Of a DNA stretch of 64,000 bases, positions 26,795 to 64,000 are shown piece after piece. Position 1 is the first letter of the stretch; the number at the start of each line of letters is the position of its first letter. Both the position numbers and the translations under genes were made by a program. A model generated the notes under the pieces. The model had not been told where the DNA came from. It worked only from the letters and a program-made list of their open reading frames with translations, and ran no database searches. The DNA is from Streptomyces noursei ATCC 11455 (GTDB taxonomy: Bacteria > Actinomycetota > Actinomycetes > Streptomycetales > Streptomycetaceae), in assembly GCF_001704275.1 (NCBI RefSeq), contig NZ_CP011533.1:8246001-8310000 (forward strand), read 5' to 3'.

Positions 26795-26808
26795 CCCGCC
26801 ACCGCGCA

Positions 26809-39972: not shown

Positions 39973-40164
39973 ATGGTCACCGCCGGCCTGCGCCGGACTC
40001 CGGTCGAGTTACCCCGCCGCGCCCCGGCCCGCCGGACCTTCGACCTGCACATGGTCCGTCGGCAGCGCGTCACCCATGTCCGTACGGCCCTCGGCGGCAG
40101 TGTCGCCGAATGCGAGGTGCGCGCGGCCAGAATCCGGAAAAAGCCCTCCGGACGTGCACTGTGA
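39973..40164 (+). CDS. Short basic protein coupled to the cluster's LysR gene
   Basis: A 63-residue, arginine-rich peptide (MVTAGLRRTPVELPRRAPAR). A GAGGAG ribosome site precedes the ATG, and the TGA stop overlaps the GTG start of the LysR gene (GTGA). This is the usual form of translational coupling in this genome and the main reason to list it. No family recognised. It may be a leader that sets LysR translation, or a chance frame. Confidence 0.4.
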   Translation: MVTAGLRRTPVELPRRAPARRTFDLHMVRRQRVTHVRTALGGSVAECEVRAARIRKKPSGRAL

Positions 40165-41261: not shown

Positions 41262-42107
41262 GTGCTGGCGGTTATGTTTGCAGGCCAGGGAAGCCAGGAA
41301 AAGGGAATGGGGGGTGAGGTGTTCGAGCGCTATCCGGGGCTGGTGCAGTTCGCCTCGGATGTGCTGGGGTACGACCTCGTTTCCTTGTGCACCGAGGATC
41401 CGGACCACTTATTGGCCCGCACGGAATACACCCAGCCGGCGCTCTATGCGGTCAACGCGCTGCGTACGTTCGAGCGGGTGCACCGCGAGGACCGGCCGGC
41501 CGACTGCTATCTGGGGCACAGCCTGGGCGAGTACAACGCCCTGCTCGCCGCCGGTGTCTTCGACTTCGAAACGGGGCTGCGGCTGGTCGCCAAGCGCGGC
41601 GAGCTGATGGCGGCGGCCTCCGACGGCGGCATGACCGCGGTGATGGACACACCGGCGGAGAAGCTGCTGCAGATCCTCGCGGACGACGGTGTCGACGGTG
41701 TCGACATCGCCGGTTTCAACACCGGCTCGCAGGTCGTCATCGCAGCCACACCCCCCGTACTGACCGCGGCGCACGACTGCCTGGCACGCCGGGAGATCCG
41801 CTTCGTGCCACTGAAGGTGAGTGCGCCGTTCCACTCCCGGTACATGGAGCCGGCCCGGGTGCGATTCGCCGAATTCCTGACGCAGTTCAGCTTCGCCGAA
41901 CCCGCCACCCCGGTCATCTCCAACGTCACCGCCCGGCCGTACGAGCCGGGACAGACGGCCCGCATGCTCGCGGAACAGCTGGTGACCCCGGTGCGGTGGA
42001 CCGACAGCGTCCGCACCCTGCTCGACGGCGACGACGGGCTGGAATTCGACGAAATAGGGGGCCTGGCCCTCTCCCACATGGTGTACAAGATCAAGGCTGG
42101 AGCGTGA
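41262..42107 (+). CDS. Discrete trans-acting malonyl-CoA acyltransferase
   Basis: A 281-residue stand-alone AT. FAGQGSQEKGMG is at the N-terminus, GHSLGEYNALLAAG holds the nucleophile (Ser 87), and APFHSRYM the catalytic histidine (His 191). The PFHS motif and overall form match the malonyl-specific ATs of trans-AT polyketide synthases. It should load malonyl units onto all the PKS carrier domains, which have no AT of their own, and onto the discrete ACP. GTG at 41262 follows AAAGGAG. The stop is two bases before the ACP start. Equivalent genes open the AT-ACP-amidotransferase sets of glutarimide clusters. Confidence 0.92.
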   Translation: MLAVMFAGQGSQEKGMGGEVFERYPGLVQFASDVLGYDLVSLCTEDPDHLLARTEYTQPALYAVNALRTFERVHREDRPADCYLGHSLGEYNALLAAGVFDFETGLRLVAKRGELMAAASDGGMTAVMDTPAEKLLQILADDGVDGVDIAGFNTGSQVVIAATPPVLTAAHDCLARREIRFVPLKVSAPFHSRYMEPARVRFAEFLTQFSFAEPATPVISNVTARPYEPGQTARMLAEQLVTPVRWTDSVRTLLDGDDGLEFDEIGGLALSHMVYKIKAGA

Positions 42108-42110
42108 CTG

Positions 42111-42359
42111 ATGACGACGACGGACAGCATCCGTAAGTACCTGGAGGACCGTTTCCTCTTCGAGTTCGACGACACGATCACCCCGGACACCGACCTGTTC
42201 AAGGCAGGTGTCATCGACTCGTTCGGCTACGTCAGGATGATGAAGTTCCTGGAGTCCGAGTTCTCCCTGAAGATCACCTCGGAGGACATCCTCACCAACG
42301 TCTTCGTCTCGCTGAACGCGATCGACGGATTCGTCCAGAAGAAGATCTCCGCGAGCTAG
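42111..42359 (+). CDS. Discrete acyl carrier protein (starter ACP)
   Basis: An 82-residue ACP. The phosphopantetheine serine is Ser 37 in VIDSFGYVRM (DSF in place of the usual DSL). The acidic N-terminal helix and LEFEFSLKI-like third helix are normal. It starts three bases after the AT stop and ends 11 bp before the amidotransferase gene. In glutarimide pathways a free ACP carries the malonyl unit that the amidotransferase converts to malonamyl, the starter that gives the imide nitrogen. The same role is inferred here. Confidence 0.9.
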   Translation: MTTTDSIRKYLEDRFLFEFDDTITPDTDLFKAGVIDSFGYVRMMKFLESEFSLKITSEDILTNVFVSLNAIDGFVQKKISAS

Positions 42360-42370
42360 AAGGACGGATC

Positions 42371-44365
42371 ATGTGCGGGTTGGCTGGATTCCTCTCGACC
42401 TCGGTGCATCCCGATGCCACCGCCGGGGTCATCACCTCGATGCTGTCGAACATTCGTCACCGCGGGCCGGACGAGGCCGGCTACTACTTGGATGACGGCA
42501 TCGCCATGGGCGCGGTGCGGCTGGCCATCGTGGATCCAGCCGACGGCTCGCAACCCATGAGCGACCCCTCGGGGCGCTACTGGATCTGCTTCAACGGCGA
42601 GATCTACAACCACATCGAGCTCCGCGCGGAACTCGCCCGGCTCGGGCGGCCGTTCCGCACCGACCACTCCGACACCGAAGTGGTGCTCCAGGCATGGATC
42701 CAGTGGGGGTCGGACTGCTTCACCCGCTTCAACGGCGCCTTCGCGGTGGCCATCAGGGACGCGCTGACCGGCGACCTCGTACTGGCCCGCGACCGGTACG
42801 GCAAACGCCCGCTGTTCTACGCCGACCACGGCGATGACTTCCTCTTCGCGTCCGAGATGAAGGCGTTCCGCGCCTTTCCCGGATTCCGATTCGCACTCGA
42901 CCCGAGCGAGCTGGCCACCACCTTCGGGGTGTGGACGCCGCTGCCCGACCGCACGCCGTTCCACGGCATCCGCCAGCTGCCGACGGCCTCGGTGCTGACC
43001 CTCAGCGGGGGACGCCGCTCCCTGCGGGCCTACGAGGACCTCGGCTTCGACGTCCCGGCCTTCGACGGCACCGAGGCCGAGGCGATCGACTTCGTCCGGG
43101 ACACCCTGCGCACCAGCGTGGAGATGCGCCTGCGCACCGACGTCGAGGTCGGCGTCTACCTCAGCGGCGGCCTGGACTCCTCGATCGTGACGAGGCTGGC
43201 CACCCGGCTCTCCCCGCACCAGGTCCGCACGTTCTCCGTGGCGTTCCAGGACAGGACGTTCGACGAGTCCGACAGCCAGTCCCTGGTCGCCGAGCACCTG
43301 GGCACCCTGCACTGCACGGTCCCGATCACCAGCGCGGACATCACCGACAACTTCCCGGCCGCGGTGTACCACGCCGAGGTCCCCACCTTCCGCACCTCGT
43401 TCGTGCCGATGTTCCTGCTGTCCCGGCACGTGCGCGACGCCGGCATCAAGACCATCCTCAGCGGCGAGGGCGCCGACGAGGCGTTCCTGGGCTACTCGCT
43501 GTTCCGCGAGACCCTGCTGCGCGAGCAGTGGAACGAGCTGCCCGACGACGAGCGCCGCACCAGGCTGGCCAACCTGCACCCGGAACTGGCGCACTTCGGT
43601 CCCGCCCACCAGGCCCATCTGCTCGGCCTGTACCAGCAGTTCTCGGAGGAACGGCTGCCGGGCCTGTTCTCCCACGAGATGCGCTACCAGAACGGCCGGT
43701 TCGCGGCGCGTCTGCTCGCCGACCGCCGCGACCCGTTCGCCGATCTGCTCGACCTGGTCGCCGCGGCGCCCGGCTACGCGGGCATGTCCGCCGTGCACAA
43801 GGCCCAGTGGCTGGAGTACAAGACGCTGCTGGCCGGATTCCTGCTGTCCACGCAGGGGGAGCGCGCCGCGCTGGCGCACAGCGTCGAGAACCGCTGCCCG
43901 TTCCTGGACCCGGCCGTGGTGCGCGCCGCCGCGTCGGTCAACCTCCGCTACGACGACGGCCAGACCGAGAAGGCCATCCTGAAGAAGGCGTTCCGCGCCG
44001 AACTCCCGGAGTGGACCACCAGCCGTCCCAAGCAGCCCTACCGCGCGCCGGGCAGTGCCGCGTTCAAGGACAGCCGTCCGGAGTACCTGGAACTCCTCTT
44101 GTCCGACCGTGAGTTGGCCAAGATCGACTGCCTGGACCACACGTTCGCCCGCCGCCTGGTTGACAAGATCATGTCCTCGCCGGTCGAGGAGATCAGCACC
44201 AAGGAGGACCAGACCTTCGTGTATCTGCTGACCACAGCGGTGCTCAACCAACAGTTCGTGCTCGACGACGGGAGCGGGCGGCACGGCGCGTCGGTGCCCG
44301 GGGACCTGGACCTGCGGGTGACCGTCGACAACCGCCGTGCCGTGCAGAAGGTGGGGGAGCGCTGA
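42371..44365 (+). CDS. AsnB-type glutamine amidotransferase, probable malonyl-ACP amidase for glutarimide
   Basis: A 664-residue class II amidotransferase. Met-Cys start (MCGLAGF) supplies the Ntn nucleophile. RHRGPDEAG, FNGEIYN and ARDRYGKRPLFYA mark the glutaminase domain (1-220). The synthetase domain shows YLSGGLDSS (PP-loop, about residue 258), GEGADEAFLGYS and the late KAILKKAFR. In glutarimide polyketide clusters this protein amidates the malonyl starter. Its place between the ACP and the PKS genes supports that over asparagine supply. The stop overlaps the PKS ATG by one base (TGATG). It has the full family length plus a C-terminal tail of about 35 residues. Confidence 0.9.
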   Translation: MCGLAGFLSTSVHPDATAGVITSMLSNIRHRGPDEAGYYLDDGIAMGAVRLAIVDPADGSQPMSDPSGRYWICFNGEIYNHIELRAELARLGRPFRTDHSDTEVVLQAWIQWGSDCFTRFNGAFAVAIRDALTGDLVLARDRYGKRPLFYADHGDDFLFASEMKAFRAFPGFRFALDPSELATTFGVWTPLPDRTPFHGIRQLPTASVLTLSGGRRSLRAYEDLGFDVPAFDGTEAEAIDFVRDTLRTSVEMRLRTDVEVGVYLSGGLDSSIVTRLATRLSPHQVRTFSVAFQDRTFDESDSQSLVAEHLGTLHCTVPITSADITDNFPAAVYHAEVPTFRTSFVPMFLLSRHVRDAGIKTILSGEGADEAFLGYSLFRETLLREQWNELPDDERRTRLANLHPELAHFGPAHQAHLLGLYQQFSEERLPGLFSHEMRYQNGRFAARLLADRRDPFADLLDLVAAAPGYAGMSAVHKAQWLEYKTLLAGFLLSTQGERAALAHSVENRCPFLDPAVVRAAASVNLRYDDGQTEKAILKKAFRAELPEWTTSRPKQPYRAPGSAAFKDSRPEYLELLLSDRELAKIDCLDHTFARRLVDKIMSSPVEEISTKEDQTFVYLLTTAVLNQQFVLDDGSGRHGASVPGDLDLRVTVDNRRAVQKVGER

Positions 44366-47300
44366 TGGCTGCCGACGACATCGCGATCATCGGGCTCGCA
44401 CTGCGGTTCCCCGGTTCCGACACGCTGGTCGAGCTGTTCGACCACCTCGCGGCGGGCCGCTCGCTGATCACCGAGGTGCCCGCCGAACGGTGGTCAAAGG
44501 AACGTTACTTCGGCGATCCGCGCAGCGGCGAGGAGAAGACCAACAGCGTCTGGGCCGGCTTCATCGAGAACGCCGACCGCTTCGACGCGGCCTTCTTCAA
44601 CATCTCGCCGCGCGAGGCGGAGACGATGGATCCGCAGCAGCGGTTCGCGCTGGAGCTGGCCTGGCAGGCCATCGAGGACGCCGGCTACCGGGCGGGCACG
44701 CTCGCCGGCAGCCGCACGGGCGTCTTCATGGGCGTGTGCCACGGCGACTACGCCGAGCTGATCGAGCGCGACGACGTGCCGACCGACGTCTACTTCCCGA
44801 CCGGCACCGCGTACTCGATCGTGGCCAACCGCCTGTCGTACTTCTTCGACTTCCACGGCCCCAGCATCGCCAACGACACCGCCTGCTCCAGCTCCCTGGT
44901 CTCGCTCTACGAGGCGGTTTCCGCACTGCACAACGGCGACTGCGACCTGGCGCTGGCCGGTGGCGTCAACCTGTGCTGGTCGCCGAAGCTGTTCGTGGCG
45001 TTCAGCAAGGCCAGCATGCTCTCGCCCACCGGCACCTCGCACGCCTTCGACGAGGGCGCCGACGGATTCGTCCGGGGCGAGGGCGGCGCCGTCCTGCTGC
45101 TCAAGCCGCTGGCCCGGGCCGTGGCGGACCGCGACCCGGTGCACGCGGTGATCAAGAGCGTCGGCACCAACCACGGCGGCAAGACCAACTCGCTGACCGT
45201 GACCAACCCGACCGCGCAGGCCACCCTGATCGAGGACGTCTACACCCGCGCCGGGATCGCGCCGGAGACCGTCGGCTACATCGAGGCCCACGGGCCGGGC
45301 ACACCGGTCGGCGACCCGATCGAGATCCTCGGCCTCACCCGCGCCTTCCGGAACCTGCACGAGGCCAACGGGACCGAACCCCGGCCGGGCAGCACCGGCA
45401 TCGGCTCGGTGAAGACCAACATCGGTCACCTGGAGTCGGCCGCCGGCGTGGCGGGCGTGGTGAAGGTGATCGGCGCGATGGCCGCCGGGACCCTGCCGGC
45501 GACGGTCAACTTCCGCACCCAGAACCAGCTGATCGACCTGGACGGCAGCCCGTTCTACATCGTCGGCGACACCCAGCCGTGGCCGGCCGACGAGGGGACA
45601 CCGCGCCGGGCGGGCGTCAGCTCGTTCGGCTTCGGCGGCACCAACGCCCATGTACTGCTGGAGGAACCGACCCGCGAGGAACCGGCCCGCGAGGAACTTC
45701 GTGACGAGCCGGCCCGTGCGGAGTCGGCCGCCGAGGCGCCGGGACCGTACGTCATCCCGCTCTCGGCGAAGAAGCCGGAGCGGTTGCGCGCGCTGGCCGA
45801 CCAGCTGCGGGACCACCTGCGGGCCCCGGAGAGCGCGCTGCGGCCGCGCCAGTCGCTGGCCGACATCGCGCACACCCTCCAGGTCGGCCGGGAGCCGATG
45901 GCGGCCCGGGCCGTGCTCGTCGTCGCGGACCGGGAGCAGCTCGTCGACGCGCTGGCGTCGGTGACCGACGGCGAGGTGCACAACCCCGCCGAGGCCGGCC
46001 CGGACACGGTCGCCGCGGCCGAGGAGTGGGTGCGCGGGGGAACCGCCGACTGGCCCCACGACCCCGAGGCACACCGCGTCCGGCTGCCCACCTACCCCTT
46101 CGCCCGCGACCGGCACTGGTACCGCACCCCGGCGGCCGGGACGCCGGACCCCGCGGCGCTGCACCCGCTCGTCCACCGCAACACCTCCGATCTGGCGCAA
46201 CAGCGCTACACCAGCACCTTCACCGGGTCCGAGCCCTTCCTCGCCTCCCACCAGGTGCGCGGCGCGCGCGTGTTGCCCGCGGTCGCGTACCTGGAAATGG
46301 CGCGGGCCGCGGTGGAGTCCGCGGCGACCGGGGACGGGGCGGTCCGGCTGCGCGACGTGGCGTGGATGCGGCCGATCGTCGTGGACGAGCCGGTCGACGT
46401 GCACATCGGACTGACCCCGCGCGGCGACACGATCGCGTTCGAGTTCCTCCAGGGCGAGACGACCCACAGCGTGGGCTCCGCCGAGCTCGTCACCGTGCCG
46501 GAGCCGTCGCCCCTGGACCTGGACGCCCTGCGCGCGTCCTGCGCGACCCCGCGCGACCCCGACGAGATGTACGCCCAACTCGACGCCCAGGGACTGGAAT
46601 ACGGGCCGGACATGCGCGCGCTGCGCGACGTCTGGGTGGGGCAGGACGAGGCGCTCGCCCGCATCCAGACCACCGCGGCCGACGGATGCGTGCTGCCGCC
46701 GAGCCTCCTGGACGCCGCCTTCCAGACCTCCGTGCTCCTGATGGGCGAGAGCACCGGCCCGACCCTGGCCTTCGCCCTCGACGAGCTCCAGGTCCACCGG
46801 CCCTGCCCGTCCGAGACCTGGGCCTGGGTCCGACGCAGCGGCGACTCCGGGGCGCTCGCCAAGTTCGACATCGACCTGTGCGACCGCGACGGCGTGATCA
46901 GCGCCAGCCTGCGCGGCCTCGCCCAGCGCACCACCGACGCCGGCCCGCGCGTCGTCACCGCGACCACGCGGTGGATCGACCGGGCGACGAACCCGGCCGA
47001 CGGCTCCCGCACCACACACTCCGTGACCCTGCCGGAGATCGCTCCGGCCCGTCCGGCCGACGGCGTCGAGGCCATGACGGAGCAGGTGTTCGCCGAGGTC
47101 CAGCAGCTGCTCGCGGCCGGCCCCAAGGGCGAGCACCGGTTCCTGGCACTGGTCGACGCCCGGGTGCCGGCGCACCTCCACGCCCCGCTGACCGGCCTGT
47201 TCCGCACCGTCGCCCTGGAGAACCCGCTCGTCTCGGGCCGCATCGTCCGGGTCACGGGCCTGGCCGCGGCCTCCCCGGAACAGGTCGCGCGGATCGTCCG

Positions 47301-56300: not shown

Positions 56301-59300
56301 CAACCCGGACACCGACCTCGCCGACCTGGCCTTCACGCTCCAGGTCGGACGGGAGGCGATGACCGAGCGGTACGCGGTCGCGGTGTCGTCCACCGCGGAA
56401 CTGAGGACCAGCCTGCGTGCCGGCCGGGGACACCGGGGTACCGTCGAGGCTTCCGGCGGTCTGCTCGCCGAGATCACCGACGACGGCGATCTCCAGGAGC
56501 TGCTGGTGCGGCGGTGGATCGCCGCCGGCAAGCTGTCCAAGCTGGCGGCGCTGTGGGCCTCGGGCGTCGCGGTGGACTGGGAGCGCCTGCACCAGGGCGC
56601 GCCGCGCCGGGTGGTGTCGCTGCCGACCTATCCGTTCGCCAAGGACCGGTTCTGGATCGGCGACCTGACCCGGACGGCGCCCGCATCGGTCGCGGCCCCG
56701 GCCGCCGAGCCCGTCGTCGAACGCGCCGCCCGACCCGCCGCCGCACCCGTCGTCGTGGAGCCGGCCGCCGTGGCGCCCGTTGCCGCGGAGCCCGCAGCCG
56801 CGCCCCCCGCCGTCGGGCGCCGGAACCTGGACGAGATCGTGCCCGCCGTGGTGCGCGAGAAGATCGCCCGCGCGCTGGCGCTGGAGGTCGCCGAGATCGA
56901 GGGCGGCCTGGCGTTCGCCGACTACGGCCTGGACTCGATCCTGGCGATCCGCGTGGTGCACCAGCTCAACGAGGCGCTGTCGCTGGACCTCCCGACCAGC
57001 GTGGTCTTCGACTTCAGCACCGCCGACCGGCTGACCGCACACCTGCTCACCACGTACCGGGACACCCTTGCCTACACGGAGGGCGCCGCGGACACGGCGT
57101 CGGAGCCGGCGGACGCCCCGCAGACGACGGGCGAGCCGGTGCCGGTGCCGGTGCCGGTGCCGGTGCCGACCGGGCGCCGGGCGGACGAGCGCGTCAGCGG
57201 GGAGCGCGGACCGATCGCGGTGATCGGCATGAGCGGCCGGTTCGCCGGCGCCGACTCGCTGGACGAACTGTGGACGCACCTGGCCGACGGCGACGACCTG
57301 GTCACCGGGACGACCCGGTTCGACCTCGACGGAGTGAGCAGCTGCACCCGGGGCGGATTCCTCGACCGCATCGACGAGTTCGACGCGATGTTCTTCAACA
57401 TCTCCGGCACCGAGGCCACGGTGATGGACCCCCAGCAGCGGCTGCTGCTCGAAGAGTCCTGGAAGGCGTTGGAGGATGCCGGATACGCCGGGCAGATGGG
57501 CCGGCGGCGCTGCGGCGTGTACGTCGGAGCCTGGGCGGGGGACTACCAGGGGCTGCTCGACCCGGACGCCCCGGCGCAGACCCTGTGGGGCAACATGACG
57601 TCGGTCATCCCGAGCCGGGTGTCCTACTTCCTCGACCTCAAGGGCCCGGCGATCGCCGTCGACACCTCGTGCTCCAGCTCGCTGGTGGCGATCGACCTGG
57701 CGTGCAAGGGCCTCTGGTCCGGTGAGACCTCGATGGCGCTGGCGGGCGGGGTGTTCCTCCAGTCCACGCCGCGGCTGTACGGGCTCGCGGGCCGCGCCGG
57801 CATGCTCTCGCCGACCGGGCGCTGCCACACCTTCGACCACCGCGCCGACGGCTTCGTGCCCGGTGAGGGCGTCGGGGTCGTGGTGCTCAAGCGCCTCGCG
57901 GACGCGCTGGCCGACGGCGACCACATCCACGGCGTGATCAAGGCCAGCGGGGTCAACCAGGACGGCGCCACCAACGGCATCACCGCGCCGAGTTCGCTCT
58001 CCCAGGAGAGCCTGCTCCGCGAGGTGTACGAGCGGTTCGACGTCGACGTGACGCGGATCGGGCTCGTCGAGGCGCACGGCACCGGCACCAAGCTCGGCGA
58101 CCCCATCGAGTTCCAGGCACTCGACCGTGCCTTCCGCGCCCACACCGACAGGACGGAGTACTGCGCGGTCGGCTCCTTGAAGACCAACATCGGCCACACC
58201 CAGTTCGCGGCCGGCGTCGCGGGCGTGCTGAAGGTGCTGCTGGCCCTCAAGCACCGGCAGATCCCCGCCTCGCTGCACTTCGAGACCGCCAACGAGGCGA
58301 TCCCCCTCGCCGGCAGCCCGTTCTACCTGAGCACCCGCACCCACGCCTGGGAGGCGCCGGCCGGCGCGCCGCGCTGCGGTGTGGTGAGTTCCTTCGGCGC
58401 CAGCGGGACCAACGCACACCTCGTGCTCGAAGAGGCGCCGCCCGTCGCGCGCACCGCGACCCCGCACAGGGCCCACACCGTGGTCCTCTCGGCGCGCACC
58501 GAGCAGCAACTCGACGAGCAGAAGCGCCGGTTGGCGGCCCACCTGCGCGCCGACGCCGCGATCGACCTCGGCGACCTCGCGTTCACGTTGGCCGTCGGCC
58601 GGCAGCGCTTCGCGCACCGGTTCGCCTGTGTGGTCCGGGACCGCGAGGAGTTGATCCAGGTCCTCGACGGCACGGTCCCGGCCCGCCTGCCCGCCGAGGA
58701 GCCGATACCGGCCGAGGGGCGCCGCATCCCGCTGCCCACCTACCCGTTCGCCCGCGACCGGTACTGGCCCGCGGCGGCCGGCGACGACCGGGTGACGCTG
58801 ACCCGGGAACACGGCCTGCTGCGCGACCACGTGGTACAGGGCCGCCACATCCTGCCCGCGGTCGCCTCCCTCGAACTGGCCCGCAAGGCGGTCGGCACCG
58901 TCCCGGTGCGGATGCGCAACGTGACGTGGGTGCAGCCGCTGGAGGTAGCCGACACCCCGGTGGAGGCCCGGGTGACGGTGCGCGCGACCGGCAGGGGCGC
59001 CCACCGCTTCGAGATCGCCACCGGCGACACCGTGTGCTGCGAAGGCAGCATCACGCCGTCCGACGCCCCGCGCCCGGCCCGGGCCGACCTGGCCGCACTG
59101 CGCGCGGACTGCCGGGAGACCGTCTCCGGCGACCGCATCCACGACGCCCTGGTGTCGATGGGCATCGACCACGGCCCGTCGCTCCGGGCGATCCGGCAGG
59201 CACACGTCGGCTCCGGGCTCGTCCTGGCCGAACTGGCGCTGCCCGACGGGGCGGAGCCGGGGGTGCTGACACCCGCGATGCTGGACTCGGCGATCCAGTC

Positions 59301-62300
59301 GGCGGTGGCGGCCCACCTCACCGGGATGCGGGACACCGCCGTGCCGTTCGCCCTGGACCAGCTGGACGCGTTCGCCCCGTGCACGCCGACGATGTGGGCG
59401 ATCGTGCGGGGCGGCGGCTCCGGACCGCTCGACAAGCTGGACATCGACCTGGTGGACGCCGACGGCGAGGTCTGCGTGCGGCTGACCGGATACACCTCGC
59501 GCCGCACGGTCCAGGCCGAACCCGCGCTGTTCGCTCCCGTGTGGGACCCGATCACCGCGGCCGAAGCGCCGGTGCCGTCCGGCACCGACCGGGTCCTGGT
59601 CGTCGGCGGGCCCGCACCGTTCGACACCGCCCTGACCTGGCCGTTGCCGCCCTCGGCGACCGTCGAGGAGGCGACCGCCGCGCTGCGCGCCCTCGGCCCC
59701 GTCGACCACCTGGTCTGGGCCGCGCCCGAGACCAAACTCGAACCCACCGACGCCCCCGGGCACGTCGCCGCCCAGAACGACGGCGTCGTCGCGGCGTTCC
59801 GCATGATCAAGGCGCTGCTCGCCGCCGGATACGACGCCCGGCCGCTGGGGATCACACTGGTCACGATCCGCGCCCTCGCCACCCACGCCCACGACGCCGT
59901 CCAGCCGGCACACGCCGGACTCCACGGCCTGTTCGGGTCGTTGGGGCGGGAGTACGGGCAGTGGACCGTGCGCCGCGTCGACCTCGACACCCCCGAATGG
60001 CCGGCCGATCTCACGGCGCTGCCCGCGCAGTCACCCGACGACGCCTGGGCCCGCCGCGCCGGCCAATGGCTGGCCCGACACTGGGCGCCCTGCGCGGCAC
60101 CGGCGAAACCGGTCTACCGCGAGGGCGGCGTCTACGTCGTGATCGGCGGCGCCGGCGGCCTGGGCACGGCCTGGACCCAGCACGTGGTGCAGCACTTCGG
60201 CGCGCACGTCACCTGGATCGGCCGCAGCGCGCACGACGCGTCCGTGGACGACAAGCTGCGCGCCATCACCGGACGCGGCACCGTCCGCTACCTCAGCGCC
60301 GACGCAGGGGACCCGGCCGCGCTGCGCCGGGCCGTCGCCGAGGTCAGGCAGCGGCACCCGCGGATCGACGGGGTGGTGCAGGCCGCACTCGTCCTGCGGG
60401 ACAGCACCTTCGCCAGGATGGACGAGGCGACGCTCCGCGCCGGACTCGCGGCCAAGATCGACGTCACGACCGCGATGGCCGAGGTCTTCGACGGCGAGCC
60501 CCTGGACTTCGCGGTGCTGCTGTCGTCGATGCAGTCCTTCACGACCGCCGCCGGCCAGGGCAACTACGCGGCCGGATGCACCTTCAGCGACGCCTATGCG
60601 CACGCCCTCGGCCAGCACTGGGACACACCGGTCAAGGTCATGAACTGGGGGTGGTGGGGCGACCGCGGGAGCGTCACCTCCGCGTTCTACCGGGAGCGGC
60701 TGAGCCGGGTCGGACTGGTGTCGATCGAGCCGCACGAGGGGCTCGCCGCCCTGGACACGCTGCTCGGCGGGGACCAGCGGCAGCTCGCGTTCATCAAGAC
60801 CAACCAGCACAACACCCTGGCCAACTTCGACCGCGGCACCCAGGTCACCGTGCACGAGCCGACGCCCTCCCGGGTCCGCGGCGAGCTGCTGCTCACCTCC
60901 GACGGCGTGGACGGCCGCATGGACGGGGTCGTGCGGTGGCGCCGAACCGAGCGCGACCCGTGGTTGGCCAAGGTCCTGGCGGCGCAGCTGGCGTCCCTCG
61001 ACCACGGCGAGATCCTGCCGTTGTACGCCGACTGGTTGGCGCACGCCGAGCAGGTCGGGGTGCCGGCCGAGCCGGTGGAGGTGGTGCTGGCGCAGTGGGA
61101 CCGGCAGTGCGAGCTGTGGTCGACCGACGCCCACCGCACGGCCGAGCTGCGGCTGGTCTCCGCCACGCTCAGGGCCCTGCCGGACGTCCTGACCGGCCGG
61201 ATCCGACCCACCGACGTCATCTTCCCGCGCGGCTCCATGGAGCTGGTGGAGGGCTGCTACCGGGACAACCCGGCCGCCGACCTGTTCAACCAGGCCATGG
61301 CCCGCGCCGCCGTGGACATCGTCACGGAGCGGCTGCGCCACGAACCCGGTGCGCGGCTGCGGATCCTGGAGATCGGCGCCGGCACCGGCGGCACCAGCAG
61401 CGGGATGTTCGCCGCGCTCAAGCCGTACCAGGACAGCATCGAGAGCTACGTCTACACGGACCTGTCGAAGGCGTTCCTCAACCACGCACGGGCCACGTAC
61501 GGGCCGGACGTGCCGTACCTGGACTGCCGGCTGCTCAACATCGAGCAGCCGCTGGCCGGGCAGGACGTCGCGGAGGGCGGTTTCGACCTGGTGATCGCCG
61601 CCAACGTGCTGCACGCGACCCGGGACACCCGCAACACCCTGCGCAACGCAAAGGCCGCCCTGCGGGCCGGCGGATGGCTGCTGCTCAACGAGCTGTCGGC
61701 GTTCGACCTCTTCAGCCACCTGACGTTCGGGCTGCTGGAGGGCTGGTGGCTGTTCGACGACCGGTCGCTGCGGATCCCCGGCTCGCCGGCGCTGTCGCCC
61801 GAGAGCTGGCGGGACGTGCTGACCGGAGAGGGATTCGGCACCGTCGTCTTCCCGCTGTCGCAGGCGCTGCCGCTGGGGCAGCAGGTCATCGCGGCGGAGA
61901 GCGACGGCGTGGCACGGCAAGGACTGGCCGGCGCGGCCAAAGGGCGCGCCCGGCAGGGGACGAGCACCCCGAAGGCGGGGGCGCGGCCCGGCGCCGGCGG
62001 CGCGGAGCGCACGGTGCAGGCACCGCGATCCGAGCCCGCGCCTGCCCCGGTGTCCGGCACCGCGGTCGTCGCCCCTGAGGCGGCTCCGGTCCCGGCGCCC
62101 CGGCCCGCACCCGCCCCGGTGGTGAGCCCCGAGCCGGCGCCCGCCGCCACCCCCGCAGCGGTGTCCGACCCGTCCGCGGTCATCCTCGACAAGGCCGCCG
62201 CCGTCCTGGGCATCCCGGCCGACCGGATCGACACCTCGGCCCGGCTCACCGACTACGGCCTGGACTCGATCCTGGTCCTCCAGCTGACCAACGCCCTGCG

Positions 62301-63672
62301 CGAGGAGTTCGGCGACGACGTCTCCTCCACCCTGCTCTTCGAGGTGGAGTCCATCGACGGCCTGTGCGCCCACTTCGCGGGCCCGGCCGGCGAACGGTGG
62401 AACCTCTCGCGCGGGCAGCTGACCATGTACCGGGACCAGCGACGCTGCCCGGAGTCGACCGCCTACCATCTCCCGCTCCTCTTCGAGATCCACGGCGACC
62501 TGGACGAGGCGGCACTGGAGCGGGCGATCCGCGCGCAGACGGCACTCCACCCGGTGCTGAGCGCGGTCCTCGGCGAGCGGGACGGCGAGCCATACCTGGA
62601 CATCGACCCGACCAGGGTGCCGTCGTTCGAGCGGATCGACATCGCGGCCGCCTCGCGCGTCGCCCAACTGGCCAGGCTGCGGGAGCTGGTCAACATCCCG
62701 TTCGACCTGGCGACGGGCCCGCTGGTCCGGACGCACCTGGTGACCCTCCCCGGTCGACGCCGGCTGCTGATGATCACCGCGCACCACATCCTGCTGGACG
62801 GTACGTCGACCGCGGTCCTGGTCCGCACGCTCAAGGACGCCTACCGGGGCGGGGGGAACCCGAGCCGGGCCGCCTACGGCGACTTCGTCGCCTGGGAGGA
62901 GGCGCTGCTGACCGGCCCACGGGCCGCGCGGCACCGCGACTACTGGGTCGGTGAGTTGGCGGCCCCGCGCAGGGCGCTCGCGCTGCCGTACGACCGGCCG
63001 TACGACCCGGAGCGGCTGCCCCGCGTGGACACGGTGACGTTCACGCTGCCGCCGGCACTGGCCACCGCACTCGCCGACACGGCACGGGAACACCGGGTCA
63101 GCGTGGCGACCGTGCTCTTCGCGACGTACGCGCGGTTCCTGCACGAGCTGACCGGACAGGACGACCTGATCCTGGGCATGACCGCCGCCGCCCGCTACGA
63201 GCAGCGGTTCCAGGACGTGGTCGGCCAGTTCGCCAACTGCCTGCCGATCCGCTGCGCGGTCACCGGCGGCCTCCCCGAACTGCTCGGTCCGCTCCAGCGC
63301 AAGGTGGTCGCCGGCATCGAGCACGGCGCCTACCCCTTGCTGGAGATCACCCGGGCGCTGGGGGCGGAGGACGAGCCGCTGGTACTGACCAACTTCCTGT
63401 TCCAGAACTTCGACGGCGCCGAACTGCTCACCAACGACGCGCCGGCCGGTCAGGGCGAGTTGGACCTGCGGCGGTTCGACGACCTGCCGTACGCCGGAGA
63501 GTACGTACTGTCCGCGGAGTTCTACCGGGAGGGCGCGGGCTACAAGGTGTTCCTCAAGTACGACACCCATGTCTTCAACGAAGCCACGGCGCGCCGTATG
63601 AGGGACGAGTGGCACGCGATCATCCGGGATGAACTGGGCCGGCACGGCGGGACGGCGGAACCGGACGCGTAG
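44365..63672 (+). CDS. Five-module trans-AT (AT-less) type I PKS with C-terminal condensation domain, glutarimide type
   Basis: A 6,435-residue protein with no AT domain. Order: KS1-DH1-KR1-ACP1, KS2-B-ACP2, KS3-KR3-ACP3, KS4-ACP4, KS5-DH5-KR5-cMT-ACP5, then a condensation domain. KS active-site cysteines: 174, 1596, 2564, 3687, 4436. ACP serines: 1317, 2321, 3434, 4191, 5968. KS2 and KS4 read DTMCSAS in place of DTACSSS. With the preceding AT, ACP and amidotransferase, module 1 would make an unsaturated malonamyl chain. Module 2 would add a malonyl branch by Michael addition, leading to glutarimide closure. Collinearity then gives CH-OH (module 3), ketone (module 4) and a methylated alkene (module 5). 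The chain has 13 carbons plus one C-methyl. No thioesterase is encoded. Confidence 0.93.
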   Translation: MAADDIAIIGLALRFPGSDTLVELFDHLAAGRSLITEVPAERWSKERYFGDPRSGEEKTNSVWAGFIENADRFDAAFFNISPREAETMDPQQRFALELAWQAIEDAGYRAGTLAGSRTGVFMGVCHGDYAELIERDDVPTDVYFPTGTAYSIVANRLSYFFDFHGPSIANDTACSSSLVSLYEAVSALHNGDCDLALAGGVNLCWSPKLFVAFSKASMLSPTGTSHAFDEGADGFVRGEGGAVLLLKPLARAVADRDPVHAVIKSVGTNHGGKTNSLTVTNPTAQATLIEDVYTRAGIAPETVGYIEAHGPGTPVGDPIEILGLTRAFRNLHEANGTEPRPGSTGIGSVKTNIGHLESAAGVAGVVKVIGAMAAGTLPATVNFRTQNQLIDLDGSPFYIVGDTQPWPADEGTPRRAGVSSFGFGGTNAHVLLEEPTREEPAREELRDEPARAESAAEAPGPYVIPLSAKKPERLRALADQLRDHLRAPESALRPRQSLADIAHTLQVGREPMAARAVLVVADREQLVDALASVTDGEVHNPAEAGPDTVAAAEEWVRGGTADWPHDPEAHRVRLPTYPFARDRHWYRTPAAGTPDPAALHPLVHRNTSDLAQQRYTSTFTGSEPFLASHQVRGARVLPAVAYLEMARAAVESAATGDGAVRLRDVAWMRPIVVDEPVDVHIGLTPRGDTIAFEFLQGETTHSVGSAELVTVPEPSPLDLDALRASCATPRDPDEMYAQLDAQGLEYGPDMRALRDVWVGQDEALARIQTTAADGCVLPPSLLDAAFQTSVLLMGESTGPTLAFALDELQVHRPCPSETWAWVRRSGDSGALAKFDIDLCDRDGVISASLRGLAQRTTDAGPRVVTATTRWIDRATNPADGSRTTHSVTLPEIAPARPADGVEAMTEQVFAEVQQLLAAGPKGEHRFLALVDARVPAHLHAPLTGLFRTVALENPLVSGRIVRVTGLAAASPEQVARIVREEGADDSADTEVRYSADGTRQVREPVETQLGAGPRVPELRAGGVYWVTGGLGGIGPHLARYFGRAEATVVLSGRSTAGSVAALRAEGVDAHYLPVDVADAQAVRDAVATLVREHGSLDGVVHAAGVLRDQYLLRKDLADVPLVTAPKVRGTLNLDAATRHLDLDFFALFSSVASVYGNPGQSDYAAANAFLDAFAEHRQSLVEAGERSGRTVAVSWPLWADGGMTVDEVTRESMRRERGWQPLPTEDGLRAFGRSLLADAPAHLVVAYGAEATLGAARRAAPVPVASSGGVVEGDRAGAGDLQARAEDLLKGVVAEVLRHAPEDLESTTNLIEYGIDSLSILGVTAQLEKLFGPLSKTIFFEYLNIADVAAHFVESRREQLEAVLGKTEPAQTPEARRDTPAERPSAPATRFDDAAGPATARVREPASEPATAGASLRGARDDRHDIAIIGVSGRYPGADTMDELWELLENGRHTFEEIPADRWDHEAVHDSDRAVLGKSVIRTGTFLRDIDAFDPRYFRISKREAEQMSPEVRLFLQAGVQALEDAGYSKETIHRRYQGDVGVLVGTMSNHYNLYGFQNGLTRGAPQSGSYTGTIPNMLSYFYGLTGPSLFVDTMCSASSTCVHQAVQMLRAGECRMVVAGGINLMLHPYNLIASSQEHFTTGTSDVIRSFGRGVDGTILGEGVGAVVLKPLVDAERDGDQVYAVIKGTALSNAGTRNGFTVPNPGMQAHAIEKAVADAAVDPRTISYVEGHGSGTALGDPIEVRALTTAYRKHTPDRQFCALGSVKANMGHLLAAAGMIGLAKVLLQFRHGKLAPSLHSTELNPDIDFTDTPFRVQQTLADWQPPVTVVDGREVAHPRRAGITSIGAGGMNSHIILEEYPERPARREPFGEQLFVFSAMNEAALGRYLASFRDYLAGAPEADLPDIAFTLRVGKNELAHRWAFVAADKRSALAAVDGYLAGRRELPAHDLATTWVAGRSVDWDQLPTARRVSLPAYPFEKVRCWVEQTEGAPSVLAPLALRERLHPFLGRNASDVRGLRYATDVHLDDLLDYGYRRDKAPAVVPTFAVDLALATAKVSGFAAQASVHDLRVLRPVDWSATRRLVTEFADGHGVVRTDDGSAAVEFTVRAATPPSGRIDLAGLRQVRTREQFLAELADGGLDYKPASCAVDGVFRTPDERTVLRVGRPAFQQDHARRNVTVEPHVLAALAQGVQWEARRAGAPDWARTALNHVAEIHVRAGVPVAHVLFEADRIVLADETGEVVGELTGARRGVGGTTPADRPVPQAAPARVEPEPVSVEPVASPVPAVVDVLRSIAADILKFAPEELDPRTGLDAFGFASISLVAFAKEIHERFGVTISPAVFFDVNTLQALGTYLADEHGVTVEARPPRPVRVEERPEPVRAEARPEPAGDAADPRMPIAVIGAAGRFPGARDLDEYWANLVAGKDSVTAFPLHRYDENQRRTIADQDFPQRVGALDDIDAFDAGFFRILPREADLMDPQHRLALETVWQALEDSAYRPADLPTTTGVFLGVSGNDYATLLTSLGVAPDAFTATGTTHSILANRISYLLDVRGPSEPIDTACSSSLVAVHRAMEAIRSGACDMAVAGGVNVLLSTDAFVSAHRAGMLSPDGLCKTFDADANGYVRGEGVGAVVLKPLAAAERDGDAILGVLRGSACNHGGRANSLTAPNADAQAELVTTALGDLDPDTVGYLETHGTGTALGDPVEVRALRTAFRRLGRRDDGACGLGSVKTNIGHLESAAGIAGLLKVLLALKHGVLPATQHVQQVNPYIELADGPFHIVRDNEPWARPRNRDGSPAPRRAGVSSFGFGGVNAHVVVEEYVPRDQDGETAATVAVPLSARTREQLTARARDLLSYLERSDDVPLRSVAWSLQIGREEMAERVGWVVSSRAELLDRLRAFVTTGDRGSGEGPIGEWIDGATVDWRATFGGTPPRRVRLPGYPFARDRFWIPGTRHLPGTEQPSGAGRGPRTEQPGGDTQEIGTVLLTPRWTPTPAAATGRYDRRVVVLCGIDGSVPGALHLDTVKRRPESRFRDLSWQLLETVRGLDTRAGTTLVQVVTDDIALAGLLRTVAKENPRIAGQVIGLDDAGGTDVAAVVAENAEATDDLVVYRDGVRHTRTWAPAAPASTAADTPWRDGGRYLITGGAGGIGARLARRIAADVRRPTLVLAGRSPGDGRVDRLLAELRQAGADARYVRADVSRWEEVRHLVAEAGELTGIVHAAGVVRDALLADKTVEQWDEVLATKVDGLVHLDRATEHCPLEFLLTFSSGAALTGNPGQSDYATANAFLDEFAAVRNTRVAEGRRRGRTLSLAWPLWEDGGMRVDDRARAYLWEDRGLAPMPTEEGLTALLDAWHTGADQVWVHHGDPRRARQSAPAATPRPAAARPVATRPVPTADPDVLDHLLTVFAEVTGLAPGSVDPDRPLVEVGLDSMMVLQLNRELIRTHPDVSSTIFFEQPTLRGVAGQLTGHRPEPARQHSTGTTDTPTTPTVTTVTADTPTGRAEPPAAGTDEPIAIIGLSGRYPGAADPDQFWDNLRAGRDCVREVDRWPLDGFFEPDRNTAVATGRSYSKWGGFLDDFAAFDPRFFGIAPRDAYAMDPQERLFVQAAWEVLEDAGYTRARLADRHGHGVGVFAGVTKVGHARHDVGRLPSGELVVPGLSFASLSARASYLLDLRGPSLTIDTMCSASLTAIHEACEQLRRGACEVAIAGGVNLYTHPLDYVELCRSGMLSPDRHCRSFGAGGHGFVPGEGVGCVLLKPLSRAEADGDRVLAVIRGSSVNHGGRTTGYTVPSPVAQADLVRQALDRAGVHAREVSYVEAHGTGTELGDPIEITGLTTAFEQDTADRQYCAIGSVKSGIGHLEAAAGVAGLTKVLLQMRHRQLVPTLHAERLNPNITFERTPFRVQRELSPWHSEGPRIAAVSSFGAGGSNAHLIVEEYPVQPTNGPTNTAEQVVALSARTPEQLTASLDRLAGFLDRNPDTDLADLAFTLQVGREAMTERYAVAVSSTAELRTSLRAGRGHRGTVEASGGLLAEITDDGDLQELLVRRWIAAGKLSKLAALWASGVAVDWERLHQGAPRRVVSLPTYPFAKDRFWIGDLTRTAPASVAAPAAEPVVERAARPAAAPVVVEPAAVAPVAAEPAAAPPAVGRRNLDEIVPAVVREKIARALALEVAEIEGGLAFADYGLDSILAIRVVHQLNEALSLDLPTSVVFDFSTADRLTAHLLTTYRDTLAYTEGAADTASEPADAPQTTGEPVPVPVPVPVPTGRRADERVSGERGPIAVIGMSGRFAGADSLDELWTHLADGDDLVTGTTRFDLDGVSSCTRGGFLDRIDEFDAMFFNISGTEATVMDPQQRLLLEESWKALEDAGYAGQMGRRRCGVYVGAWAGDYQGLLDPDAPAQTLWGNMTSVIPSRVSYFLDLKGPAIAVDTSCSSSLVAIDLACKGLWSGETSMALAGGVFLQSTPRLYGLAGRAGMLSPTGRCHTFDHRADGFVPGEGVGVVVLKRLADALADGDHIHGVIKASGVNQDGATNGITAPSSLSQESLLREVYERFDVDVTRIGLVEAHGTGTKLGDPIEFQALDRAFRAHTDRTEYCAVGSLKTNIGHTQFAAGVAGVLKVLLALKHRQIPASLHFETANEAIPLAGSPFYLSTRTHAWEAPAGAPRCGVVSSFGASGTNAHLVLEEAPPVARTATPHRAHTVVLSARTEQQLDEQKRRLAAHLRADAAIDLGDLAFTLAVGRQRFAHRFACVVRDREELIQVLDGTVPARLPAEEPIPAEGRRIPLPTYPFARDRYWPAAAGDDRVTLTREHGLLRDHVVQGRHILPAVASLELARKAVGTVPVRMRNVTWVQPLEVADTPVEARVTVRATGRGAHRFEIATGDTVCCEGSITPSDAPRPARADLAALRADCRETVSGDRIHDALVSMGIDHGPSLRAIRQAHVGSGLVLAELALPDGAEPGVLTPAMLDSAIQSAVAAHLTGMRDTAVPFALDQLDAFAPCTPTMWAIVRGGGSGPLDKLDIDLVDADGEVCVRLTGYTSRRTVQAEPALFAPVWDPITAAEAPVPSGTDRVLVVGGPAPFDTALTWPLPPSATVEEATAALRALGPVDHLVWAAPETKLEPTDAPGHVAAQNDGVVAAFRMIKALLAAGYDARPLGITLVTIRALATHAHDAVQPAHAGLHGLFGSLGREYGQWTVRRVDLDTPEWPADLTALPAQSPDDAWARRAGQWLARHWAPCAAPAKPVYREGGVYVVIGGAGGLGTAWTQHVVQHFGAHVTWIGRSAHDASVDDKLRAITGRGTVRYLSADAGDPAALRRAVAEVRQRHPRIDGVVQAALVLRDSTFARMDEATLRAGLAAKIDVTTAMAEVFDGEPLDFAVLLSSMQSFTTAAGQGNYAAGCTFSDAYAHALGQHWDTPVKVMNWGWWGDRGSVTSAFYRERLSRVGLVSIEPHEGLAALDTLLGGDQRQLAFIKTNQHNTLANFDRGTQVTVHEPTPSRVRGELLLTSDGVDGRMDGVVRWRRTERDPWLAKVLAAQLASLDHGEILPLYADWLAHAEQVGVPAEPVEVVLAQWDRQCELWSTDAHRTAELRLVSATLRALPDVLTGRIRPTDVIFPRGSMELVEGCYRDNPAADLFNQAMARAAVDIVTERLRHEPGARLRILEIGAGTGGTSSGMFAALKPYQDSIESYVYTDLSKAFLNHARATYGPDVPYLDCRLLNIEQPLAGQDVAEGGFDLVIAANVLHATRDTRNTLRNAKAALRAGGWLLLNELSAFDLFSHLTFGLLEGWWLFDDRSLRIPGSPALSPESWRDVLTGEGFGTVVFPLSQALPLGQQVIAAESDGVARQGLAGAAKGRARQGTSTPKAGARPGAGGAERTVQAPRSEPAPAPVSGTAVVAPEAAPVPAPRPAPAPVVSPEPAPAATPAAVSDPSAVILDKAAAVLGIPADRIDTSARLTDYGLDSILVLQLTNALREEFGDDVSSTLLFEVESIDGLCAHFAGPAGERWNLSRGQLTMYRDQRRCPESTAYHLPLLFEIHGDLDEAALERAIRAQTALHPVLSAVLGERDGEPYLDIDPTRVPSFERIDIAAASRVAQLARLRELVNIPFDLATGPLVRTHLVTLPGRRRLLMITAHHILLDGTSTAVLVRTLKDAYRGGGNPSRAAYGDFVAWEEALLTGPRAARHRDYWVGELAAPRRALALPYDRPYDPERLPRVDTVTFTLPPALATALADTAREHRVSVATVLFATYARFLHELTGQDDLILGMTAAARYEQRFQDVVGQFANCLPIRCAVTGGLPELLGPLQRKVVAGIEHGAYPLLEITRALGAEDEPLVLTNFLFQNFDGAELLTNDAPAGQGELDLRRFDDLPYAGEYVLSAEFYREGAGYKVFLKYDTHVFNEATARRMRDEWHAIIRDELGRHGGTAEPDA
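44377..48432 (+). other. PKS module 1: KS-DH-KR-ACP
   Basis: KS1 (residues 5-435) has DTACSSSL at Cys 174, but its first histidine motif reads EAHGPGTPVG instead of HGTGT. DH1 (about 599-858) has HQVRGARVLP (His 629) and LPPSLLDAAFQTS. KR1 (about 1023-1205) has GGLGGIG and the SYN-type pair SSVASVYG / QSDYAAAN. ACP1 holds Ser 1317 in YGIDSLS. The set would extend a malonamyl starter to a 2-alkenoyl chain. Confidence 0.85.
48637..51460 (+). other. PKS module 2: KS-B-ACP (branching module)
   Basis: KS2 (residues 1425-1860) has DTMCSASST (Cys 1596), GHGSGT and NMGHLLAAAG. The 250-residue region at about 2005-2253 has a DH-like double hot-dog outline (LHPFLGRNASDVRGLRY) but no HxxxGxxxxP motif, and no D/Q motif. 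It fits the B (branching) domain of rhizoxin and glutarimide PKSs, which helps the Michael addition of malonyl to the alkene. ACP2 reads GFASIS, with Ala in place of the conserved Asp before Ser 2321. Confidence 0.8.
51562..54777 (+). other. PKS module 3: KS-KR-ACP
   Basis: KS3 (residues 2400-2822) is canonical: DTACSSSL (Cys 2564), THGTGT, NIGHLESAAG. KR3 (about 3140-3330) has GGAGGIG, SSGAALTGN and QSDYATAN. ACP3 carries Ser 3434 in GLDSMMV. It should give the hydroxyl next to the glutarimide methylene. Confidence 0.85.
54907..57060 (+). other. PKS module 4: KS-ACP
   Basis: KS4 (residues 3515-3940) has DTMCSASLT (Cys 3687), EAHGTGT and GIGHLEAAAG, so all three catalytic residues are present. 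After the post-KS linker (LPTYPFAKDRFW) only a P/A/V-rich stretch separates it from ACP4 (Ser 4191, YGLDSIL). With no reductive or methyl domain, the beta carbon should stay a ketone. Confidence 0.83.
57136..57168 (+). repeat. In-frame hexanucleotide repeat in the PKS linker
   Basis: CCGGTG is repeated five and a half times, coding a PV dipeptide run in the linker between modules 4 and 5. It could vary in length by slippage without shifting the frame. Confidence 0.8.
57211..62397 (+). other. PKS module 5: KS-DH-KR-cMT-ACP
   Basis: KS5 (residues 4283-4691) has DTSCSSSLV (Cys 4436), EAHGTGT and NIGHTQFAAG. DH5 (4813-5050) has HVVQGRHILP (His 4822) and LTPAMLDSAIQS. KR5 (about 5254-5430) has GGAGGLG, SSMQSF and QGNYAAG. 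The C-methyltransferase (about 5530-5848) has LEIGAGTGGTS near residue 5665. ACP5 carries Ser 5968. It should yield an alpha-methyl, alpha,beta-unsaturated thioester. Confidence 0.85.
62398..63669 (+). other. C-terminal NRPS-type condensation domain of the PKS
   Basis: Residues about 6012-6435. The catalytic motif HHILLDG is intact (His 6140-6141). Flanking condensation motifs are seen: QLTMYRDQ at the start, RTHLVTLPGRRRLLMITAHH, and VGQFANCLPIRC late. No adenylation or carrier domain follows. It may release the chain by ester or amide formation, or by an internal cyclisation. Confidence 0.85.
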
Positions 63673-63754: not shown

Positions 63755-64000
63755 TCAGACCAGGGTCTGGAGCACGGCGGGGTCGTAGGCGACGGTCCGG
63801 TCCAGTTCACCGCGCAGCGCCTTCGCCGCCCAGTCCGGGTTGGCCAGCAGCGTCCGGCCCACCGCGACGAGGTCGAACTCGTCGCGCTCCAGGCGCGCCA
63901 CCAGCTCCTCGATGCCGGCCAGGCCGGCCTCCTTGGTGAGGCCCTGGGCGAACTCGCCTTCCCCGTACTGCCGGTCCAGGCCCACCGAGCCGACCGTCAC
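63755..64000 (-). CDS. Old Yellow Enzyme-type NADH:flavin oxidoreductase, partial (C-terminal end)
   Basis: The last 81 codons of a gene whose start lies beyond the window. GIEELVARLERDEFDLVAVG, then RTLLANPDWAAKALRGE, is the conserved end of OYE-family alkene reductases, after the FMN phosphate-binding loop. It converges on the PKS, separated by a terminator. Ene reductases occur in clusters that reduce enone or phenol-like polyketides, so it may belong to the pathway, but the orientation leaves this open. Confidence 0.75.
   Translation of the reverse strand: MTVGSVGLDRQYGEGEFAQGLTKEAGLAGIEELVARLERDEFDLVAVGRTLLANPDWAAKALRGELDRTVAYDPAVLQTLV

Follow-up and report, generated by a model that had tools for sequence, protein, structure and literature searches.

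In the classic cycloheximide (chx) cluster of strain YIM56141 and Streptomyces griseus, discrete AT, ACP and amidotransferase (AMT) genes accompany a five-module AT-less polyketide synthase (PKS) and chxF–chxJ; a thioesterase ends the PKS and chxF lies between the PKS and chxG (PMC4853412, PMC7546818). Section 19 of the former describes ChxG as an enoylreductase, ChxH as a ketoreductase, ChxI as a P450 and ChxJ as a three-domain carboxylic acid reductase. Already in 2016, the same section counted S. noursei ATCC 11455 among the cycloheximide-like clusters, with a PKS ending in a condensation (C) domain. The form given there for ATCC 11455, Streptomyces sp. 769 and Saccharopolyspora flava DSM 44771 has chxA–chxC, a five-module PKS ending in C, chxF elsewhere than between the PKS and chxG, and adjoining chxG–chxJ (PMC4853412). 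S. noursei has also been named as a source of cycloheximide and actiphenol in a study of ATCC 11455 that lists both as putative mass matches (PMC9557299). The 2016 paper assigns orfX, the stand-alone C-domain gene of strain 2AW, to a toolkit of tailoring genes, as an extra member, with an evolutionary history separate from that of the PKS (PMC4853412). Its passages on orfX draw no link to a PKS C domain, and no other account of orfX was found in the literature searched.

The locus analyzed here has all the listed features of the C-terminated form and is very probably the published ATCC 11455 cluster, with no known difference. Compared with S. flava, where no chxF match was found in the 36 kb examined, its core proteins show about 74% mean identity. 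With the classic cluster it shares the AT, ACP, AMT, five-module AT-less PKS, chxF–chxJ and the same compounds, but neither the thioesterase nor the position of chxF. The split clusters of the 2AW type (G019, TSRI0281) possess chxF–chxJ homologues at 71–82% identity, but their thioesterase-type PKS is located on another contig and their orfX is, in our reading, a shortened PKS relic. Since the ATCC 11455 cluster has been described and the species named as a source of the compounds, the identity of the cluster is already known; the new part is our reading of orfX and of the replacement of the PKS core.

The C-terminated PKS locus of S. noursei ATCC 11455

The window, the whole stretch of 64,000 nucleotides that was analyzed, holds the core genes and the C-terminal end of the chxG homologue; the other tailoring genes follow just beyond its end (Table 1). 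The preliminary description had placed discrete AT, ACP and AsnB-type amidotransferase genes in front of a single AT-less PKS, and the Pfam and NCBIfam matches and the ORF coordinates agree with this order and strand. All four genes are on one strand, and the start of the PKS shares one base with the AMT stop. The AT scored 263.1 bits against the TIGR00128 cut-off of 260.9, and the AMT combines an N-terminal glutamine amidotransferase (GATase) domain with an Asn_synthase domain. For the ACP, the automatic reading frame used for annotation opens at 42108. The PKS is one protein, as claimed, and no AT domain was matched by Pfam in the six pieces into which it was divided.

Table 1. Features of the locus, in the numbering of the window; coordinates beyond its end continue this numbering (e.g., second P450 = L010:17014-18303, offset 54000).
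Feature	Coordinates	Strand	Details
chxF homologue, LysR-type regulator	39603-41090	+	PF03466/PF00126
AT, chxA-like, discrete malonyl AT, FabD-type transacylase	41262-42107	+	PF00698; NCBIfam TIGR00128
ACP, chxB-like, discrete, 82 residues	42111-42359	+	PF00550; start read from sequence
AMT, chxC-like, AsnB-type amidotransferase	42371-44365	+	PF13537 + PF00733 (259 bits)
PKS, AT-less, five modules, terminal C domain	44365-63672	+	6,435 aa
Module 1	44374-48417	+	KS 44374-45654 (end approximate), DH 46162-46938, KR 47428-47964, ACP 48226-48417
Module 2	48637-51435	+	KS 48637-49914 (end approximate), B about 50335-51114, ACP 51238-51435
Module 3	51562-54765	+	KS, KR 53782-54327, ACP 54577-54765
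Module 4	54904-57045	+	KS 54904-56184 (end approximate), ACP 56848-57045
KS4 tip + post-KS4 linker	56173-56640	+	Piece recurring at the orfX N-terminus in four relatives
Module 5	57211-62361	+	KS, DH 58798-59523, KR 60127-60660, MT 61366-61680, ACP 62179-62361
Terminal condensation domain	62404-63627	+	HHILLDG motif 62782-62802
chxG homologue, OYE-type ene-reductase	63755-64867	-	63755-64000 in the window (C-terminal end)
chxH-like SDR	65124-65897		Outside the window
chxI-like P450	66037-67233		Outside the window
chxJ-like carboxylic acid reductase	67390-70791		Outside the window; NF041592, 1832 bits (cut-off 1300)
Second P450	71014-72303		Outside the window, after the chxJ homologue

By Pfam, the PKS reads KS-DH-KR-ACP, KS-(B)-ACP, KS-KR-ACP, KS-ACP, KS-DH-KR-MT-ACP and a terminal Condensation domain (PF00668, 219 bits), and a pattern search found the catalytic Cys and the two His motifs in five of five KS domains. 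No MT was found by Pfam in module 4. The first two modules are thus KS-DH-KR-ACP and KS-B-ACP, as first proposed, the B domain occupying in module 2 the place in which Pfam matched no DH. Positions 4-237 of a 265-position profile built from 19 orthologous domains aligned with the RhiE B domain (4kc5; E 2.7e-6), which the single sequence matched weakly (E 0.004). From the predicted model of the domain, which is poor (pLDDT 64) and falls within the DH-like folds (4kc5 being the match ranked 34), the general DH-like fold alone was used. Judged from the profile match and this fold, the B domain of module 2 is homologous to the RhiE branching domain. The B domain of RhiE carries out Michael-type branching. 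Like the KS-B didomain of RhiE (rhizoxin), module 2 has a KS followed by a B domain, most of which is covered by the profile match; unlike in RhiE, the substrate and product are others, and the match amounts to 30 bits only. The whole module 2 matches RhiE and, with a higher score, 7zma (“putative polyketide synthase”).

In a phylogenetic tree, a 100/100 branch separates the AMTs of 22 glutarimide clusters from seven S. noursei paralogues; the tree used seven of the 16 other Asn_synthase matches of the genome, leaving nine aside, and included no reference primary asparagine synthetase. The assignment to the glutarimide family made in the preliminary description is therefore supported by both the AMT tree and the B-domain homology. 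Two of the Asn-synthase matches, at 127376-128521 and 9687364-9688509 of the single contig of 9,815,884 bp that makes up the genome, have equal scores and mirror each other exactly from both chromosome ends, an arrangement that points to terminal inverted repeats some 128 kb or more in length.

The family assignment can be sharpened with the help of the neighboring genes. The OYE reductase, SDR, P450 and carboxylic acid reductase match chxG, chxH, chxI and chxJ by order and type, and in 17 other genomes, S. flava included, the corresponding sets are 64–86% identical. Upstream of the PKS operon lies a LysR-type gene that we name chxF because it is homologous to the LysR gene between the PKS and chxG of other clusters, the place given for chxF in the published section (PMC4853412). 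In the thioesterase-type clusters compared, chxF is indeed found there; the identity is 67–77% in the 13 relatives in which it was detected. The automatic ORF carries about 170–190 surplus N-terminal residues, and candidate starts are at 40110 (ATG) and 40161 (GTG).

Because homologues of chxF–chxJ adjoin the core, the region 41262-63672 is almost certainly the cycloheximide/actiphenol cluster of S. noursei, of the type in which a condensation domain ends the PKS, and not an unspecified small glutarimide cluster. Very probably, cycloheximide and actiphenol are the putative products of these genes. An uncharacterized small glutarimide cluster was ruled out, as the tailoring genes sit just past the end of the window. 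All genes of the original inventory are real, but that inventory lacked the C domain at the PKS end and the tailoring genes, most of which lie outside the window. The view that this is one of the simplest assembly lines of its type is fair; it is not unusual, however, the five-module block being a conserved core of the family according to section 19 of PMC4853412.

The closest named genome is that of S. noursei A-2-1, with a main common stretch of 26,986 bp at 97.1% identity. The second P450 is 94% identical in A-2-1; elsewhere, it has matches at 32–36% or a short one at 52% in Kitasatospora MAA19. The genome also encodes a cyclodipeptide synthase identical in 238 of 238 aligned residues to AlbC of 3oqv, which we take to be the AlbC structure from S. 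noursei. At 26769-31160 of the window, a frame of 1,463 residues combines a Ser/Thr kinase domain with PQQ-type beta-propeller repeats.

Relatives of the cluster and the origin of orfX

A ChxG homologue with at least 78% identity is present in 10 of 392 Streptomyces genomes, S. noursei ATCC 11455 included, the next value being 70%. A contig scan with this homologue covered the best 80 of 381 loci, and the tailoring set adjoins in 11 of these 80 (L013-L021, L026, L027). AMT homologues (E 1e-150) were found in 20/20 genomes selected. After removal of the near-duplicates G393 (AMT score equal to that of G358) and G397 (coordinates equal to those of G075), 19 genomes, including ATCC 11455, were compared; AMT, KS1–KS5 and G, H, I and J are present in all of them. 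A C-terminated PKS occurs in eight (S. noursei ATCC 11455 and A-2-1, MAA19, MJM8645, G175 and three Saccharopolyspora, one of which, G401, was scored as C-type although its C domain sits on a separate contig from the rest of the PKS). The other 11 have a thioesterase-type tail, called by Pfam in six (6/6 tested positive, all orfX strains among them) and by the appearance of the tail in five; four of the 11 (G019, TSRI0281, G149 and G100) also have orfX, which lies between chxF and chxG.

Three more clusters with a C domain next to a ChxG homologue were found in G617, G517 and G588, the last of which lacks the PKS front (contig end) and was used in the tailoring tree only. A C domain like that of S. 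noursei (E 1e-60) is encoded in nine of the 392 Streptomyces genomes: S. noursei ATCC 11455, G175, the orfX strains G019, G100 and G149, and four without a close ChxG. A search of 394 family genomes at E 1e-150 yielded no new orfX copies; six genomes matched (S. noursei included, and G539 and G567, the same records as MAA19 and MJM8645), with frames of 1,711–7,159 aa. In G370 (L126:7607-15871, minus strand), a 2,754-residue PKS frame comprises the stretch from the post-KS4 linker onward, that is, module 5 and the C domain only; the amidotransferase and modules 1–4 were absent from the 20 kb examined. It may represent a further case of an assembly line cut at this position.

Our evidence on orfX comes from G019, TSRI0281, G149 and G100, strain 2AW itself being absent from the data. 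In all four genomes, orfX consists of the KS4 tip, the post-KS4 linker and a C domain in one frame. The orfX linkers are 83, 83, 69 and 68% identical to the PKS linker of S. noursei, while the linkers of the 11 thioesterase-type PKSs, including those of the orfX strains themselves, reach 49–56% and those of the three Saccharopolyspora C-types 47–52%. In the linker tree, the four orfX and the five Streptomyces/Kitasatospora C-type linkers form one set (100/99). The homology at the left end of orfX begins within about four codons of the same KS4-end position (4/4), and an in-frame GTG there is a possible start in G019, TSRI0281 and G100. In the stretch that joins linker and C domain, orfX of TSRI0281 and G019 retains a piece of 40 residues that is collinear with the latter half of ACP5 and lacks the ACP5 serine. 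These pieces score 65 and 51 against ACP5 and 19–28 against the other four ACPs, and such ACP5 scores were reached by 0 and 2 of 5000 shuffles, respectively; the piece is gone from orfX of G149 and G100. The chxF and chxG matches are 22,540–22,672 bp apart in the five Streptomyces/Kitasatospora C-type clusters, 1,906–2,098 bp in the four orfX clusters and 99–527 bp in the six clusters without orfX in which both were detected.

Linker identity, ACP5 pieces and chxF–chxG spacing together argue that orfX is what remained of a noursei-type operon after deletion. We are thus highly confident that the stand-alone C-domain gene of the 2AW type descends from a noursei-like PKS by in-frame deletions, and that a separately evolved thioesterase-type glutarimide core, perhaps first acting in trans, replaced the lost one. 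The deletions would have taken out AT-ACP-AMT-KS1..KS4 and ACP4..half of ACP5, while the linker and C domain stayed. The opposite course, a free C-domain gene later fused to a PKS, was ruled out, because orfX carries PKS pieces other than the C domain. A shared left boundary favors a single deletion; the trees leave one or two, since the orfX linkers group together at 56/78 only, the orfX C domains fall apart in the best tree and come together in only 6% of the bootstrap trees, and the thioesterase-types are divided into two clades in the tailoring tree. Near chxG of the seven thioesterase-type genomes without orfX, no linker or C-domain remnant was accepted (tblastn, 3.2-kb stretches), the best E value among the matches listed being 0.006.

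By a simple Nei-Gojobori count, dN/dS is 0.26–0.46 in the orfX C domains (six pairs) and 0.30–0.50 in the fused C domains (10 pairs). The orfX linkers show 0.24–1.11, with five of six pairs at 0.61–1.11, and the C-type linkers 0.14–0.48. The C domain of orfX thus seems to be still working, and its linker drifting. As the linkers of the thioesterase-type PKSs are loosely held too (median pN/pS 0.53, 36 pairs), the high values in orfX linkers are a weak sign of decay.

Histories of the core and tailoring genes

The core tree (AMT and KS1–KS5, 22 rows) was built from glutarimide-type clusters only, including those of S. noursei A-2-1 and S. flava, and without ltm, mgs or smd sequences. A branch with 92/99 support has the eight C-types on one side, and the five Streptomyces/Kitasatospora C-types group together (100/100). 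The tailoring data (ChxG, H, I and J) reject a clade of these five (p-AU 0.0026), a clade of all eight C-types (p-AU 0.0027) and a clade of the 11 thioesterase-types (p-AU 0.0031); the core data, in turn, reject the tailoring grouping (p-AU 0.0026). In the tailoring tree (22 rows, Saccharopolyspora as outgroup), the thioesterase-types form two clades among the C-types, and the deepest forks are weak (83/82, one open). Mean identities to S. noursei in core versus tailoring proteins are 87–90% and 80–81% for the C-type Streptomyces/Kitasatospora, 73–74% and 77–82% for the orfX strains, 72–75% and 73–83% for the seven thioesterase-types without orfX, and 74% and 69–70% for Saccharopolyspora.

With the Saccharopolyspora root, the position of the thioesterase-types in two clades among C-types points to the C-terminated state as the older one here, and to either two replacements or one with later recombination. 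The published model differs. According to PMC4853412, the tailoring genes and orfX evolved separately from any glutarimide PKS, so that the 2AW layout would be ancestral and orfX a spare tool that was later lost. This would fit the location of the tailoring set on a different contig from the PKS in G019 and TSRI0281, and no C-domain gene was found in the examined stretches of 7 of 11 thioesterase-type clusters. However, a free tool would not hold pieces of a PKS, and orfX holds the linker in four of four cases and half of ACP5 in two of four; moreover, the deepest divergences in the tailoring tree are among C-types, although these forks are weak and depend on Saccharopolyspora as the chosen outgroup. 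We therefore regard the toolkit model as highly improbable, although its in-trans step may be right. It is likely, instead, that the tailoring genes evolved alongside a C-terminated PKS and that this PKS was deleted, leaving orfX as a fossil that selection kept as a stand-alone enzyme; a separately evolved thioesterase core would then have taken its place on at least one and possibly two occasions, initially perhaps in trans, with no free toolkit joining a glutarimide PKS.

The terminal C domain and the proposed pathway

In the proposed pathway, the AT would put malonate on the ACP, and the amidotransferase would convert it to the malonamyl starter (malonamyl-ACP). Module 1 would perform extension, reduction and dehydration; the KS and B domains of module 2 would add the next malonyl unit by Michael addition, imide closure giving the glutarimide. 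Modules 3–5 would contribute beta-hydroxy, beta-keto and methyl-ene units, and the single methyltransferase presumably installs both C-methyls. Following the published proposal together with our own reading of the genes, ChxJ would reduce the acid to the aldehyde, ring closure would lead to actiphenol, and ChxG, ChxH and ChxI would yield cycloheximide. One methyltransferase motif was observed per PKS, in S. noursei and in the other PKSs compared, yet cycloheximide bears two C-methyls; two methyls for one methyltransferase are a gap in the scheme.

The terminal domain has the HHxxxDG active site and the fold of a C domain, and the PKS, which has no terminal thioesterase, ends in PF00668, as in the published condensation-domain form. 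The protein stops 14 residues past the Pfam match with no acceptor carrier domain after C, and chxG is next on the other strand. Glutarimide-type five-module PKSs ending in a C domain were also observed in G111 (L132:4490-14109) and G060 (L128:4994-15666), each preceding an NRPS that comprises condensation, adenylation, carrier and methyltransferase domains; G303 is similar by gene order. No chx tailoring genes were found in the 36–40 kb examined around the G111 and G060 PKSs. The NRPS of G111 opens with its own C domain (residues 1–451), which places two C domains in tandem across the protein boundary; three C stretches in G060 indicate that the same is probably true there.

As no thioesterase was found among the 18 annotated proteins of the cluster and its flanks (a few of the chosen frames may not be genes), release is left to the C domain or to ChxJ. 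In our estimate, the chances are even that the terminal C domain offloads the C15 chain and so replaces the thioesterase of other producers. It is possible, and we put it forward tentatively, that the domain does not release the chain at all and modifies the ACP5-bound intermediate (e.g., isomerizes or pre-cyclizes it) or passes it to the carrier of ChxJ, which reduces it off. ChxJ does possess carrier and reductase domains of its own, and an acceptor carrier domain is missing behind the C domain. The C domain is constrained beside a thioesterase in four strains, so that the orfX C domain may have a function other than, or besides, release; the PKS-terminal C domain of G111, which precedes an NRPS starting with its own C, fits on-line modification as well. 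Against this stand the missing thioesterase in S. noursei and the reports of S. griseus and YIM56141 as cycloheximide producers with the thioesterase-ending type of PKS (PMC4853412, PMC7546818), so that the C domain does not seem necessary for any unique step. A different product, such as a streptimidone-like glutarimide or the C15 acid as an ester or amide, would agree with the usual role of C domains in joining an acyl group to an amine or alcohol, with the second P450 after chxJ, and with the several products that the same five-module core gives according to section 19 of PMC4853412. We nevertheless consider it very unlikely, in view of the complete chxG–chxJ set with its counterparts in 17 genomes and of the report of the species as a source of both compounds (PMC9557299).

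Taken jointly, the identity of the cluster, a working pathway and the descent of orfX with replacement of the core make up an explanation that we hold to be very likely. The comparison reverses the published account of the origin of the cycloheximide pathway, and the deletion steps of an assembly-line swap are still readable in the DNA. In addition, one five-module line with one set of tailoring genes occurs with either a thioesterase or a condensation ending, which makes the role of the C domain testable by mutation.
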